A stretch of DNA of 64,000 nt, taken from assembly GCF_003044935.1 (NCBI RefSeq), contig NZ_POXP01000001.1, positions 248,001 through 312,000 on the forward strand, in the 5' to 3' direction. The notes under the pieces are model-generated. The model was given only the letters and a program-made list of their open reading frames with translations, was not told where the DNA came from and did not search any database. Of this stretch, positions 1 through 6,369 are shown piece by piece. Numbering within the stretch: the first letter of the stretch is position 1; every line of letters begins with the position of its first letter. This DNA comes from Neisseria subflava (GTDB lineage: Bacteria; Pseudomonadota; Gammaproteobacteria; Burkholderiales; Neisseriaceae). The position numbers and the translations under genes were made by a program.

Positions 1-661
1 CCGATTCTTCGTTTAACAGGGAAAGCAACGGGGCGGCAAATGAAGCTCCCAAAGCAAGGCATAGGCGGCTATTGTTCTCTGCGTATCGCGCTGCCTGCTC
101 CTGCCATTCCTTGAGGCTGCCTTTTTCTGTGTAACCGTCTTTTTGGCTGGTGTCTCCGTTGTATAGAATGTTTGTGCCGTCTGCATTAACGGCTTCCCCG
201 CCTGCCAGTATGTAGGCGTCCCCGTTCCAACCGGCGCGGTCGGTAATGGTAAAGGCTATCGGGCTTCCCTCTTTCTGCAAATAGTCTGCCAGTCTTTCCC
301 TTTTTGCCCGTCCGCTCATGATGACTAGGCCGAAATTCTGCAAACGCTGCCAGCCTTGAACTGTGCCGATTTCTGCTTGTGGTAGGGCGGCGGTCTTTTG
401 TTGGCGTGTGATTTTGTCTTTAAACTTGATAATCCGATAATACGCGCCGTCATTGTCTTGCCCCGTGCCTATGATGTCGATAGGGTCGGAAAGGAATTGC
501 GGCTCTGATTCGATAATATCGCCGTCTTTATCGGTTCTAACGTTTACCCACCATACGCCCTGATTATCGATTTCAAAGTGAGGGCGCGGGCGGAATAGCT
601 CGATATTCTCAAGGTTGTAATCGTTAGGGCTTTCCTGCTTCGCTGTTTCGGTATTTTTCAT
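1..661 (-). CDS. DUF927-domain helicase-like replication protein (C-terminus outside window)
   Basis: The 5' end is complete: an ATG at 661 overlaps the TGA of the primase gene as ATGA, so translation is probably coupled. The 220 codons present begin MKNTETAKQESPNDY and contain RPRPHFEIDNQGVWWVNV, then a stretch typical of the DUF927 domain found in phage and island replication proteins that join a primase to a superfamily 3 helicase. The ATPase part with Walker motifs would lie beyond position 1 and cannot be seen. With the upstream primase it probably makes the two halves of an alpha/Rep-like primase-helicase needed for autonomous replication of the element. Helicase activity is inferred from family context. 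Confidence 0.75.
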   Translation of the reverse strand, partial: MKNTETAKQESPNDYNLENIELFRPRPHFEIDNQGVWWVNVRTDKDGDIIESEPQFLSDPIDIIGTGQDNDGAYYRIIKFKDKITRQQKTAALPQAEIGTVQGWQRLQNFGLVIMSGRAKRERLADYLQKEGSPIAFTITDRAGWNGDAYILAGGEAVNADGTNILYNGDTSQKDGYTEKGSLKEWQEQAARYAENNSRLCLALGASFAAPLLSLLNEES

Positions 662-1758
662 GCTGTCTGTCCTCCGGAATGATTGTCTGATTGCTTTTTC
701 TCGTTCAGTTCGTCCAGTGCGTCATAGCCCGGCGTTTTGCTTTGCCATATACTCGCCTTGATTCCCTGCTTAATGGCTCGCATTGCCAAGTCATAAGCGG
801 CTCTGTAACCAACGGGGCGGGGCGTGTCGTTATCGGCAATAATCACAATCTCTTTTATACCGTTCAAAAAGTGAAAATTTGCCAAGCTGTTTGCGCTCAA
901 GGCCGCGCATAAGCCCCAATCGTAAGCCTTGTACAATTCACGGGCGGCAAGGGCGGTTTCTATGCCCTCTGCAATGACAAGACGGCCATTTTCAGGAATC
1001 GGGAACAGGTGGACGGCTTGCCCCGATATACTGCCTTTCTTGCGGCTTCTCATTTTCTTGGCCGGTAATGTTTCGCCTGTTACAGGGCCTTTGATTGCCA
1101 GTTTCTGGTAGCGCGGGGCGTGTAGTCCGTCCTCTCCGCATGGCTTGTCATAGCTAGGCTGTAAATAGGTTAGGTGTAAGCCTTGTAGCTCTTCGTCCAT
1201 ATCGCGGATAGCGCAAACCATACAGGGGAAACTACCAAGCAACAGCGGCTTATCTTCGCCTGTTGTCCAATAGTCTTTTTCAGGTAGGAAACGGACGTTT
1301 TCGGGTAAATGCGCCATGTCCAAACCGCGTGATTTCAAATACTGGATAACAGGGGAATCGGGGCGGATAGGTTCTGTGCTTCTCCACAATGCGGCCAGTT
1401 CCTCGATTTGGTCTTTTTCGGGGCGTGGTTGCGCTTGTGGGCGTGTTGGCGGTATCGGCAAAGGGTTTGCATTGTCCATGCCTAAAATGCCTGAAACCTG
1501 CTTTAAGGCCGTCTGAAAATCACACCCGAAAAAGTGCATTACCAAGCCGAAACCATCGCCCGCGCCGTTGTTGTAATGGCTGCAAATGAATGTGCCGTTT
1601 CCGTCCTTGTCGTCATATCTGAAACGGTCTTTCCCTCCACACGCGGGGCAGGGCTGGTGTTTGTTTTTCAGGTATCGCGGGTCTATGCCTAATGCGGCGT
1701 GTATTTCCGGCCAGCGGTATTGCGCGACGGCTTTAATGTCTTGGTATGTTGGTTTCAT
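658..1758 (-). CDS. Zinc-finger/Toprim DNA primase of the element
   Basis: A 366-residue protein from the ATG at 1758, which has a GGAGG ribosome site 6-10 bases upstream; an in-frame start 60 bases earlier lacks one. Near residues 35-65 it has a zinc-binding CPAC...ICSH motif as in gp4-type primases. In the C-terminal half there is a Toprim domain with the GRLVIAEGIETA glutamate motif and the EIVIIADND acidic motif. These mark a primase that lays RNA primers for replication of the element. It overlaps the gene before it and the gene after it by 4 bases each (ATGA), so the three are one translationally coupled operon. A neisserial DUS at 1506-1517 lies inside the coding region. Confidence 0.85.
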   Translation of the reverse strand: MKPTYQDIKAVAQYRWPEIHAALGIDPRYLKNKHQPCPACGGKDRFRYDDKDGNGTFICSHYNNGAGDGFGLVMHFFGCDFQTALKQVSGILGMDNANPLPIPPTRPQAQPRPEKDQIEELAALWRSTEPIRPDSPVIQYLKSRGLDMAHLPENVRFLPEKDYWTTGEDKPLLLGSFPCMVCAIRDMDEELQGLHLTYLQPSYDKPCGEDGLHAPRYQKLAIKGPVTGETLPAKKMRSRKKGSISGQAVHLFPIPENGRLVIAEGIETALAARELYKAYDWGLCAALSANSLANFHFLNGIKEIVIIADNDTPRPVGYRAAYDLAMRAIKQGIKASIWQSKTPGYDALDELNEKKQSDNHSGGQTA

Positions 1759-1970
1759 TGCTCTGCCTCCTCTGATACTGGTTCTAAAACAATTCCGGCG
1801 GTCGGGTCGGTTTCCCATATTGCGGGCGTTTCCTGCTCTAGTTGCTCCGTGTCGGCGTGGGCGGGCTGGTTACAGGCTCGGACTACCAAAGCCAAAAGCA
1901 ACACCCAAAACACCAGCAAGGCGCGGTTAAGATACCGGCGGAAACGGTCGGATTTATTGGTCTGTTTCAT
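1755..1970 (-). CDS. Small single-pass membrane protein of unknown function
   Basis: The 71-residue product has a basic N-terminus (MKQTNKSDRFRRYLNRA), one hydrophobic segment at about residues 18-32 (LLVFWVLLLALVV) and then an acidic, proline-containing tail, so an N-in single-span topology is likely. A GGAGG-containing stretch lies 17-21 bases upstream of the ATG and AAGGA is closer. Its stop overlaps the primase start as ATGA. I recognise no family. In P4 the small genes before the primase are called kil, eta and orf106; this one takes that position, but there is no sequence basis for equating them. Confidence 0.65.
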   Translation of the reverse strand: MKQTNKSDRFRRYLNRALLVFWVLLLALVVRACNQPAHADTEQLEQETPAIWETDPTAGIVLEPVSEEAEQ

Positions 1971-2115: not shown

Positions 2116-2250
2116 TTAACCGGCGTGGGTTACGCTGTAAACAGCCCATTCTTTCAGGTCGTCTGAATCGTCAGGGCGCGGGATGGGGTCGGTTTTGAAT
2201 ATATCCCTCAAGCTCGGATGACAAATCGAAAGATTCCAAGTTTTCCGCAT
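2116..2250 (-). CDS. Possible 44-aa overlapping small ORF
   Basis: An ATG-to-TAA frame of 44 codons overlaps the end of the 108-aa gene at 2171-2497 in another frame and extends 55 bases beyond its stop. The C-terminal half (IFKTDPIPRPDDSDDLKEW then AVYSVTHAG) looks protein-like and hydrophilic. There is no clear ribosome site before the ATG at 2250, so expression would need coupling to the overlapping gene or a -1/+1 slip. The stretch DSDDL is encoded by a reverse AGGTCGTCTGAA uptake sequence. It could equally be a chance frame or the remains of a longer C-terminus lost by frameshift. Confidence 0.3.
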   Translation of the reverse strand: MRKTWNLSICHPSLRDIFKTDPIPRPDDSDDLKEWAVYSVTHAG

Positions 2251-2497
2251 GGGGGACTAGGGTTTGAATGACTGTGGCAAGGCGTGCCGTGCTTCTGATC
2301 GCACTTATGGGGGCGTTGTGGACGGGATGGGCGGCCATGTTGTCGCAAATGGTGTCGATGATTGCGCCCGTATTGGCGATAAATTCGCCGCCGTAATACA
2401 GCGCGTCCATGATGCGGTTTGCCAGCTCTAAGGGGATGGTTACCGTTTGGGCTTGATTTTGAATGGTTTGGATTTGGGTAGAATTTGAAGATTTCAT
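2171..2497 (-). CDS. Unknown 108-aa early protein of the element
   Basis: The first gene after the antisense-RNA/leader region, with an AAAGG site upstream of ATG 2497. The product starts with a Ser/Thr/Gln-rich segment (MKSSNSTQIQTIQNQ), followed by a predicted helical body with RIMDALYYGGEFIA, and ends in Pro-rich NRPHPAP. No signal peptide, membrane span or known motif is seen. It lies where P4 has its RNA-controlled early genes, so its expression is probably set by the structures at 2536-2762. Function not recognised. Confidence 0.6.
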   Translation of the reverse strand: MKSSNSTQIQTIQNQAQTVTIPLELANRIMDALYYGGEFIANTGAIIDTICDNMAAHPVHNAPISAIRSTARLATVIQTLVPHAENLESFDLSSELEGYIQNRPHPAP

Positions 2498-2535
2498 GAG
2501 GTGCTACCTTTCTGTTTGGCTAATGCCTCCTCCGT

Positions 2536-2618
2536 TCTCACACGGTAGGGCGGCGGGCAAAGGCAAGGTGTGAGAAACTGGCAAACAGTACCAGCGGGCG
2601 TGCGCCCTCCTTGCCCCG
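2536..2618 (-). promoter_or_regulatory. Structured leader, probable target of the antisense RNA
   Basis: On the minus strand this leader of the 2171-2497 gene can form a perfect 8-bp stem TCTCACAC/GTGTGAGA (2568-2575 with 2536-2543), a small GGGC/GCCC hairpin (2596-2607), and a CTGG/CCAG hairpin whose loop contains CTGTTTG. A second, longer pairing is possible between GGCAAGG/GGCGG and CCTTGCC/CCGCC. The segment at 2570-2588 is complementary to the small RNA upstream (2684-2704). When that pairing forms, the TCTCACAC arm is occupied and the hairpin beside the GGAGGAGG stretch cannot. A P4 CI or P1 C4 type switch is inferred. Confidence 0.5.
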
Positions 2619-2647
2619 CCCACCATGAAAGGTAAAGCTAGGGGATA

Positions 2648-2680
2648 GATACAAAAAAAACCGCTAGGCGGCTTTGTATC
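2648..2680 (-). terminator. Intrinsic terminator of the antisense RNA
   Basis: CCGC TAG GCGG stem at 2661-2671 followed on the minus strand by eight T, all enclosed in GATACAAA/TTTGTATC arms (2673-2680 and 2648-2655). The T run on the minus strand gives the direction. Confidence 0.7.
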
Positions 2681-2727
2681 TGCCTGTTTGTTTCAGCTTC
2701 TCACGGCTGACCTGCTATTGAACAGGT
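2652..2727 (-). ncRNA. Candidate CI/C4-like antisense RNA
   Basis: A short transcript of about 75 bases is expected between a promoter-like pair (TTTACA, 17 bases, CAAGAT at 2762-2734) and an intrinsic terminator (2680-2648). It holds a small hairpin, ACCTG/CAGGT, and then the segment 2704-2684 (minus) reading GTGAGAAGCTG AAA CAAACAG. This pairs with the leader segment 2588-2570: 11 base pairs in a row including one G-U, a small internal loop, then 7 more. Length, terminator and position ahead of the replication genes match the immunity RNAs of P4 (CI) and P1/P7 (C4). Homology by structure, not by database match. Confidence 0.5.
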
Positions 2728-2733
2728 TTGCTA

Positions 2734-2762
2734 ATCTTGCCGTTTTGCGTGGTGTTTGTAAA
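2734..2762 (-). promoter_or_regulatory. Probable promoter of the antisense RNA/early operon
   Basis: Minus-strand TTTACA at 2762-2757 and CAAGAT at 2739-2734 with a 17-base spacer. It is the only well-spaced sigma-70-like pair I see between alpA and the early genes. The expected start near 2727 gives a short RNA ending at the terminator at 2648, or, on read-through, the early operon mRNA. Confidence 0.4.
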
Positions 2763-2913: not shown

Positions 2914-3144
2914 TTAGCTTGCCTGTTCTGTAAGCCATTTCTTCACTTCTCCTGCTACATAAAAGCGGCTGCGCGTGCCTGTGATTTGGCGTGATTGCGG
3001 GAATTGTCCTGCTGCCTCCAGTCGTCTAATTTGGCTACTGCTCAAGCGAGTGATTCCGCGCCGTCCTTTCGCTTGGCTGGTCTCAAGTTCTGCGATAGTT
3101 AATTGCGCGGTATCAGGTAAGCTGTCGATATTGATAATGTGCAT
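2914..3144 (-). CDS. AlpA-family helix-turn-helix regulator
   Basis: The 76-residue product carries the AlpA signature in its second half: RGITRLSSSQIRRLEAAGQFPQ, then a basic turn (TGTRSRFY) and VAGEVKKWL. AlpA/Vis proteins are winged-helix activators and excisionases of P4-like satellites, and AlpA is also a hallmark of Gram-negative PICIs. A strong AAGGAGG site sits 5 bases before ATG 3144. It lies between the integrase side and the early operon, the usual place for a switch gene. Expected roles are activation of int or of the early promoter and help in excision; this is family-based. Confidence 0.8.
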   Translation of the reverse strand: MHIINIDSLPDTAQLTIAELETSQAKGRRGITRLSSSQIRRLEAAGQFPQSRQITGTRSRFYVAGEVKKWLTEQAS

Positions 3145-4125: not shown

Positions 4126-4437
4126 TCAGGCAATCGCCTCAATTCCCTTGTTCTTGACGATGGTAAGCAGCTTCAAAGCTGCGCCGCTCGGCTTTTTAAT
4201 GCCCCGTTCCCATTCGGAAACTTGGTTTTTACCGATGTTTAGATACATGGCAAAAGCGGCTTGTGATAATGCTTCGCGCTCTCTGATTGCCTTGATGTCT
4301 TCGCCGCTCAATGGTTTGATTTCGGTCAGGCATGATTTGTCAAAATCGCGCATGGTTTTTTTGTCGATAATGCCGATGTCGTGCAAACCCTGCATGGTTT
4401 CATGTATTGCTGCGAAAATCTCGCTTTTGTATTTCAT
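4126..4437 (-). CDS. XRE-family antitoxin (HigA/NadS-like)
   Basis: The 103-residue product has a helix-turn-helix of the XRE type in its C-terminal half: IKAIREREALSQAAFAMYL, then GKNQVSEWERGIKKPSGAALKLL. The N-terminal part would wrap the toxin. It starts inside the toxin gene's stop (ATGA overlap at 4434-4437), the toxin-first order of HigBA-type modules. Antitoxins of this family neutralise the mRNA interferase and repress their own promoter. Here the promoter would lie before the toxin gene, near the integrase stop. Confidence 0.8.
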   Translation of the reverse strand: MKYKSEIFAAIHETMQGLHDIGIIDKKTMRDFDKSCLTEIKPLSGEDIKAIREREALSQAAFAMYLNIGKNQVSEWERGIKKPSGAALKLLTIVKNKGIEAIA

Positions 4438-4802
4438 GGCTGTATCTCCGTGAAAGTGCCGTTTGATTTGGCTTGCTCTATGTCGGTTTCCGTCATTGCC
4501 AAGATGATGGCGGCGGCTTTCTTTAATTCTGCAAGTTCTTTGTTCGTGATGTTTTCGCGGTCGTTCTTGGCAAAGGCGGTCATGAAAAACGCCCGTTCCC
4601 CACGTCTGAAAAATATCAGGCTACGATAACCGCCGCTTCTGCCTTGCCCTTGCCTTGCTATGCGCTGCTTGATAACGCCGCCGCCTAAATCTGCGTCTAT
4701 TACTCCTTTATCTGCCCGCTCTACCGCTTCTATCAGCTCGGAATCGCTGATTTTGTGCTTCTTGGCAAATTTCGTTATCCACTGGTTTCTAAATATCCGC
4801 AT
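4434..4802 (-). CDS. RelE/HigB-type toxin
   Basis: A 122-residue protein starting MRIFRNQWITKFAKKHKISD. It has the GVIDADLGGGVIKQRIARQGQGRSGGYRS core and IFFRRGERAFFMTAFAKND that are characteristic of the HigB2/RelE-like family of ribosome-dependent mRNA interferases. The Arg/Lys-rich strands of the fold are intact, so the toxin looks functional. It is 31 bases downstream of the integrase stop on the same strand, and the antitoxin overlaps its end. Such modules stabilise islands by killing cells that lose them. Confidence 0.8.
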   Translation of the reverse strand: MRIFRNQWITKFAKKHKISDSELIEAVERADKGVIDADLGGGVIKQRIARQGQGRSGGYRSLIFFRRGERAFFMTAFAKNDRENITNKELAELKKAAAIILAMTETDIEQAKSNGTFTEIQP

Positions 4803-6336: not shown

Positions 6337-6369
6337 TGGTGGAGGCGGGGGGAATCGAACCCCCGTCCG
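6337..6369. other. Attachment site core at the ssrA 3' end
   Basis: The acceptor and T-arm of the tmRNA gene (minus strand) abut the integrase side of the island, so recombination within this stretch keeps ssrA intact. The exact core cannot be fixed without the second copy, which should flank the element's left end outside the window. Confidence 0.6.

Follow-up and report, generated by a model that had tools for sequence, protein, structure and literature searches.

The window, i.e., the whole 64,000-nt stretch of the Neisseria subflava genome analysed here, harbours genes of an integrative island of about 8.4 kb, whose ends are tentatively placed by a short 14-bp repeat with an exact copy at L052:13921. 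The following features of the island were annotated:

658-1761, minus strand: primase with zinc ribbon and Toprim (PF08273, PF13362, phrog_510)
1755-1970, minus strand: 71-aa ORF with a membrane-like stretch by eye; no Pfam or PHROG match, NCBIfam at E 0.08 or worse
2171-2497, minus strand: opening gene of the operon behind the switch (108 aa); Pfam and NCBIfam gave no match at E up to 0.5
2914-3144, minus strand: AlpA-like regulator (PF05930), upstream of the switch as in P4
4834-6057, minus strand: tyrosine integrase of the island (PF00589)
6337-6350, plus strand: putative right attachment site at the 3' end of the tmRNA gene (14-bp repeat)

The replication operon also includes a DUF927 helicase gene, and a 226-aa ORF without family match is found elsewhere among the island's contents. 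The PHROG comparison of the 108-aa protein gave a single weak hit to a family of unknown function (E 3.1e-4), and the 258 ORFs behind C4 units that were analysed contained no relative of it, its own apart. The primase operon, the AlpA-like regulator, the integrase at the tmRNA gene and the C4-type RNA ahead of the operon together give the island the makeup of a P4-like satellite, and a comparison of its DNA with phage and plasmid records gave no match at E up to 1e-3. At 4126-4802, the island carries a gene pair for an HTH antitoxin-like (103 aa) and a RelE toxin-family (122 aa) protein.

Ahead of the 108-aa gene, the elements of the switch are arranged on the minus strand as follows:

2734-2762, minus strand: weak promoter-like pair TTTACA (2762-2757), 17 nt, CAAGAT (2739-2734), read by eye
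2654-2730, minus strand: predicted target leader RNA (P4 seqA / IsrK / c4-a1b1-like), about 75 nt to the terminator, with hairpins in 2730-2676
2698-2704, minus strand: b1 target GTGAGAA, loop of a predicted CAGC/GCTG hairpin (duplex computation, own-target matching)
2684-2690, minus strand: a1 target CAAACAG, left single-stranded by the predicted fold (duplex computation, own-target matching)
2653-2675, minus strand: intrinsic-terminator-like hairpin and T-run between target leader and C4 (terminator scan)
2546-2630, minus strand: C4 antisense RNA, P4 CI-like (RF01695)
2582-2588, minus strand: a' specificity loop CTGTTTG of C4 (specificity alignment)
2570-2576, minus strand: b' specificity segment TTCTCAC of C4, a 7-mer identical to that of phage P4 (specificity alignment, P4 control)
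2535-2541, minus strand: b2 target GTGAGAA (seqC), within a predicted hairpin (duplex computation, own-target matching)
2512-2518, minus strand: a2 target CAAACAG, abutting the ribosome-binding-site candidate AAAGG at 2511-2507 (own-target matching, sequence reading)

The second target region as a whole (2545-2498, seqC) runs into the ribosome-binding site of the 108-aa gene. A preliminary description had reported that GTGAGAAGCTGAAACAAACAG (2704-2684) pairs with CTGTTTGCCAGTTTCTCAC (2588-2570) by 11 bp, including one G-U, plus 7 bp, and this pairing is present as described, as is the perfect 8-bp hairpin, in which TCTCACAC (2575-2568) pairs with GTGTGAGA (2543-2536) next to GGAGGAGG at 2533-2526 of the minus strand. 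It had further delimited an RNA of about 75 nt by a promoter-like pair and a strong terminator. Here, the terminator-like hairpin with its T-run at 2675-2653 was recovered, but the TTTACA/CAAGAT pair at 2762-2734 is weak and was not reported by a consensus promoter scan, and the RNA of about 75 nt is a prediction. Terminator-like sites over the 3-kb stretch number 7 compared to a shuffle mean of 5.4, which is no clear excess.

Family assignment and polarity of the RNA pair

An Rfam scan of the whole window returned two matches over the cut-off, namely the tmRNA and C4 (RF01695). The C4 match at 2630-2546 of the minus strand covers the full model (1-87) and reaches 49.1 bits against a gathering score of 45, so that the covariance-model search proposed earlier as a check speaks for the family. 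The margin is just 4.1 bits, and 10 of the 62 family hits outside the genome G078 (ESL0693) fall below the cut-off. The fold itself has a z of -3.4, and the two segments a' and b' are complementary to upstream as well as downstream targets, with b1, a1, b2 and a2 all matched in the window. Phage P4, which served as control, gave 74.9 bits for C4, 60.8 for isrK and 44.1 for c4-a1b1 (the latter also under the RF03163 gathering score of 46.7), in the same order as in the window.

In a lax Rfam scan of 501 bases, the leader (2727-2654) matched isrK (RF01394) with 28.5 bits, under the cut-off of 50, next to two further matches at chance level. This isrK match is the best one in its own genome (E 2.7e-4 vs 0.029 for the next), and since weak isrK matches (E up to 1) are present in 10 of the 14 control genomes too, it counts only by its position. 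With RF03163 giving no match at E up to 1, membership of the leader in isrK or c4-a1b1 was rejected.

The window's switch is a new member of the known C4 family. Three lines of evidence, namely the placement of the C4 model of Rfam, the control with P4 and the targets matched to either side, identify 2630-2546 as the antisense RNA and the 75-nt piece as the target leader. In this respect the roles given in the preliminary description, which took the 75-nt RNA (2730-2654) for the antisense and the downstream hairpin for the leader, are inverted, and the same three lines of evidence rule out that polarity as the main reading; its more general proposal, a switch of the P4 CI / P1 C4 type that precedes replication genes in an operon, is borne out by the score over the cut-off, the P4 layout and the own-target matches.

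Distribution of C4 and matching of loops to targets

Within the genus, 18 of 46 genomes have a C4 match with E up to 0.01, which exceeds the cut-off in 13 of them. C4 was further detected in 39 of 83 genomes of the family at E up to 0.001 and in 52 of 399 genomes of an even draw from the order at E up to 2e-7, while none of the 14 control genomes contained it in either the genus, the family or the order search. The family search comprised 102 C4 places, 99 of which were analysed in sequence, three of the 40 in G078 being left out.

This genome (ESL0693; L073-L093, L096-L100) stands out by its 40 C4 matches, several of them in tandem about 350 nt apart. In five stretches examined, the units lie between ordinary chromosomal genes, often with an ORF of about 40 aa and one of 84 aa behind, and 33 distinct a/b specificities were found among the 37 read. 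A comparison of its C4 loops with foreign leaders gave 13 matches to both a and b in 2294, without a clear pattern. Multi-copy C4 RNAs are described for Acinetobacter baumannii in a section of an earlier report (PMC5320573), and tandem C4 arrays with matched targets may be new.

In Snodgrassella (genus g10; G067-G080, loci L038-L048, L057, L058, L063-L071), the same two C4 units, with the specificities CTCTTTG/CTGTCAA and CTGATTA/CTTCCAG and short ORFs behind, recur in 9 of 14 genomes, and one of them in three. No relative of the window's primase was found in these genomes at E up to 1e-30, and the units look as if domesticated. At several C4 loci, sRNA-Xcc1 (RF02221) adjoins the C4 RNA (L012:1217-1302, L019:1936-2021 and 2457-2542, and L009:1762-1847, the match at L009 being below the cut-off). 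Similar neighbourhoods appear in excerpts of the literature, with adjacent isrK and C4 matches and Xcc1 next to them in Xylella (PMC12189769) and adjacent isrK and C4 RNAs among the candidate small RNAs of Burkholderia cenocepacia (PMC4603805). In L003, L009, L019 and L049, C4 precedes antirepressor-like genes as in P1 immI; AntA (PF08346) was found by profile scan at L003, and the other three were judged by translation likeness.

Covariation of the fold was assessed in 49 of the 54 distinct C4 sequences with at least 39 bits outside G078 (L065-L068 and L071 were left out), and 14 of the 20 consensus pairs displayed two-sided changes; two of the 62 hits lie under 39 bits and were excluded here and from the counts of shared specificities. 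For specificity, a' and b' were fixed from the alignment with one row per specificity, which resulted in 38 rows (37 Neisseriaceae loci and P4), and an exact match was defined as 7 of 7 for b and at least 6 in a row for a. Own targets were matched exactly in 36 of 38 cases for b1, 33 for b2, 30 for a1 and 31 for a2, each reached in 0 of 5000 permutations, compared to 31/1304 (b1), 11/1304 (b2), 163/1398 (a1) and 82/1398 (a2) for loci with a different element. In G078, which was counted separately in this and in the duplex-energy test, 19, 17, 19 and 19 of the 33 specificities matched their own b1, b2, a1 and a2. Both C4 segments hence change together with both targets, i.e., the compensatory change in related islands that had been named as a check is indeed found.

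Duplex energies point in the same direction for the leader. The C4 core and its own leader in the window form a duplex of -32.1 kcal/mol, which 0 of 2000 dinucleotide shuffles reached, and across the 42 distinct C4 cores outside G078 the mean is -33.7 for cognate vs -24.2 kcal/mol for non-cognate pairs (0/20000 permutations). The own C4 is the best partner for 22 of the 42 leaders; for the leader of the window it comes second after the C4 of L016, whose loops are identical. With the downstream region, the window's C4 core reaches -22.3 kcal/mol, which is not better than shuffles (462 of 2000). Support for the downstream pairing comes from the own-target matches among the relatives. Cognate and non-cognate means for this region are -24.9 vs -19.6 (42 cores, 0/20000 permutations), with the own C4 as the best partner for only 9 of 42 downstream regions.

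Equal specificities within genomes were also considered as a test of incompatibility. No two elements of one genome share both a and b (0 of 27 pairs), which is not significant, as shuffles gave the same in 800 of 5000 cases.

A sister element behind a c4-2-like leader

Relatives of the 108-aa protein occur at five places in 4 of the 46 genomes of the genus, including a second gene copy in the window's own genome (C1:57156-57479, 96% identical). This copy belongs to a sister element (L123, G000:C1:50000-65000) beside a different integrase and tRNA-Leu. Both elements share a replication block of 2575 nt with 98.4% identity, which extends from the 108-aa gene to within the initial portion of the helicase gene, and identity per 50 nt amounts to 20-32% in the 300 nt before the start codon vs 90-100% after it. 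The sister leader is without C4 match and contains a c4-2-like RNA (RF02944, of the same Rfam clan as C4) with 26.3 bits, under the gathering score of 41. All four 108-aa-family places other than the window's have such a c4-2-like match, each below the cut-off (23.2-28.1 bits).

A search for the window's primase at E up to 1e-30 gave relatives in 31 of 83 genomes, and 41 of 43 primase places were labelled by the RNA in front, with 24 C4, 8 c4-2 and 9 without RNA found. Several of these labels are less certain. None of the c4-2 matches reaches the cut-off, L173 was assigned to C4 solely on its leader match, L167 on its leader match together with a match of its DNA to C4 of the window, L202 was assigned to c4-2 on pattern and RNA scan, and L182 has both RNAs. 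Two partial primase rows were left out of both trees and three with inner stops out of the second. In the 41-row tree, the window forms a clade with six c4-2 rows (100/100), and in the 38-row tree (23 C4, 7 c4-2, 8 none) window and sister group together (100/98), followed by G037 and G005 (100/99) and then G027 and G024 (98/93), each of them c4-2. One clade of all C4 rows vs the c4-2 rows was rejected with a p-AU of 1.6e-81, in a test that is not about the window alone and whose groups were set from RNA scans, though after the first tree was known. The closest primases are preceded by c4-2-like RNAs, so that an exchange of leaders within the C4 clan is probable; most simply, a C4 leader has replaced a c4-2 leader in the element of the window. 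At L182, a C4 (132-216) and a c4-2-like RNA (662-730; 31.7 bits, below the cut-off) stand in a row before one primase.

The c4-2 family, which reportedly goes back to Weinberg 2017, is given no function in a passage of the Rfam 15 paper. Within the genus, a free-loop c4-2 pattern was found at 8 places in 7 of 46 genomes. Its 7-nt loop is present in five different versions. At all 8 places, it matches the region of the ribosome-binding site, and at 6 of them also the leader ahead of the terminator. Leaders and ribosome-binding sites do not match the loops of other versions, the one exception being the leader of L126, which carries the target of L124's loop. L126 appears as a mosaic, in which the own loop and ribosome-binding site agree and the upstream target fits the loop of L124. 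By eye, similar matches are visible at more distant c4-2 loci, some with two segments as in C4. The sister's own leader has no exact match to its c4-2 loop. For the sister's RNA, kinship with c4-2 is indicated by the pattern and by the agreement of its loop with the ribosome-binding site.

Duplex energies did not cleanly separate the genome's two switches. The window's C4 pairs with the leader and ribosome-binding site of the sister no better than shuffles do (393/500 and 386/500), but the c4-2 core of the sister attains -20.8 kcal/mol with the leader of the window, reached by 2 of 500 shuffles, and its pairing with its own leader and ribosome-binding site is no better than that of shuffles (193/500 and 94/500).

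With about even chances, we propose that leaders of the C4 clan are exchangeable immunity cassettes, which would let two elements with near-identical replication genes coexist, and that c4-2 RNAs could be antisense switches of the same logic, their loops being matched to a leader target and the ribosome-binding site.

Proposed mechanism, alternatives and known relatives

We consider it very likely that the locus is an immunity switch based on an antisense RNA of the C4 type and belongs to an integrative element similar to P4. At the level of sequence, this reading builds on the family score, the covariation of the fold, the three-way matching, the conserved order and the leader difference ending at the start codon. 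Processing, pairing, repression and immunity are inferred by analogy with P4, P1 and their relatives, and transcription and the use of the leader as an exchangeable cassette are likewise proposed. One transcript would start near 2730, and much of it would end at the terminator behind the target leader (a1b1). Read-through would give the C4 RNA (2630-2546), probably cut out by RNase P, to about 77 nt if it behaves like other C4 RNAs; a section of one report describes how C4 is cut from a longer transcript by this enzyme with a GGW motif at the site (PMC5320573), which GGT at 2624-2622 resembles. Via loop a' and segment b', C4 would then pair in trans with a1b1 of new leaders. It would also pair with a2b2 ahead of the 108-aa gene. 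These pairings would block the ribosome-binding site of this gene and favour early termination, so that the genes for the 108-aa and 71-aa proteins, the primase and the DUF927 helicase, which make up the replication operon, would be kept off. The same repression would extend to an incoming element of equal specificity.

Among the alternatives, a role similar to toxin-antitoxin systems, in which C4 chiefly restrains a harmful small protein and immunity is secondary, seems unlikely to us. Precedents for such a harmful small protein would be kil of P4 and icd of P1. In many relatives C4 lies directly before a short ORF, and the units of G078 sit between chromosomal genes with small ORFs behind, whereas the first gene of the window's operon is the 108-aa ORF without Pfam or NCBIfam match, followed by the primase. 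It is very unlikely, in turn, that a once-active switch persists as a functionless remnant in a decayed island. The weak promoter and the C4 score near the cut-off would fit such a decay, but all four target matches are exact, the frames of the 108-aa gene, the primase and the integrase are open, and the 14-bp repeat is present at both ends.

We also regard it as quite unlikely that the short 2730-2654 RNA is itself the trans-acting antisense and the downstream hairpin its target. Such an RNA would be discrete, bounded by the promoter-like pair and the terminator, and IsrK of Salmonella, a structural homologue of P4 SeqA according to sections of its description, acts in trans on its own read-through transcript (PMC4825925). 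The conserved fold over the cut-off is nevertheless C4 itself, with matched targets on both sides, and P4 and P1, as far as the consulted sections go, use the C4 piece as regulator (PMC4825925, PMC5320573, PMC8198154). Beside C4 as the regulator, a short leader RNA acting in trans may remain only in an IsrK-like side role.

The proposed C4 switch closely resembles that of phage P4, with its target leader, antisense RNA (CI), second target, small genes and alpha primase operon, an AlpA-like gene upstream and the same b 7-mer. According to a passage on P4, the CI RNA pairs with seqA upstream and seqC downstream of CI, which leads to transcription termination (PMC4825925). Unlike in P4, the window's a specificity is a different one, its 108-aa and 71-aa genes are without family match, and its integrase side features the RelE/HTH pair and an integrase beside the tmRNA gene. 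With the immI system of P1/P7 (c4, icd, ant), it shares the Rfam family and the a'/b' loops, which sections of two reports describe as pairing near the ribosome-binding site (PMC5320573, PMC8198154), but the window has replication genes instead of icd/ant; at L003, another C4 locus in Neisseria, an AntA antirepressor follows. IsrK-orf45-anrP of Salmonella Gifsy-1 likewise combines a short leader RNA, a terminator and read-through with a processed RNA (STnc1160), and the part of the report at hand includes the authors' own comparison with CI; there, however, the short RNA activates translation, with AnrP downstream and AntQ upstream (PMC4825925). Finally, a c4-2-like RNA (RF02944) precedes relatives of the 108-aa gene or the primase in the sister element and in six other genomes of the genus; c4-2 differs by its shorter model, with all matches below its cut-off, and the window's own leader has C4 instead.

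The portion of the literature covered, partly at the level of titles, contained no description of a C4 RNA in Neisseria or Snodgrassella, and titles and abstract openings mentioned no P4-like satellite of Neisseria with such a switch; the earlier statement that no such switch is described in Neisseria is uncontradicted within this scope. Beside the known C4 family, the probable exchange of leaders and the matches between c4-2 loops and targets stand out, and the analysis proposes targets for the c4-2 RNA family. Two near-identical replication blocks behind different RNA leaders in one genome represent a natural experiment on whether RNA specificity decides coexistence. If the proposed reading is true, small integrative elements throughout Neisseria and its family would be governed by RNA immunity of the P4/P1 type, and dozens of distinct specificities could be told from the sequence.
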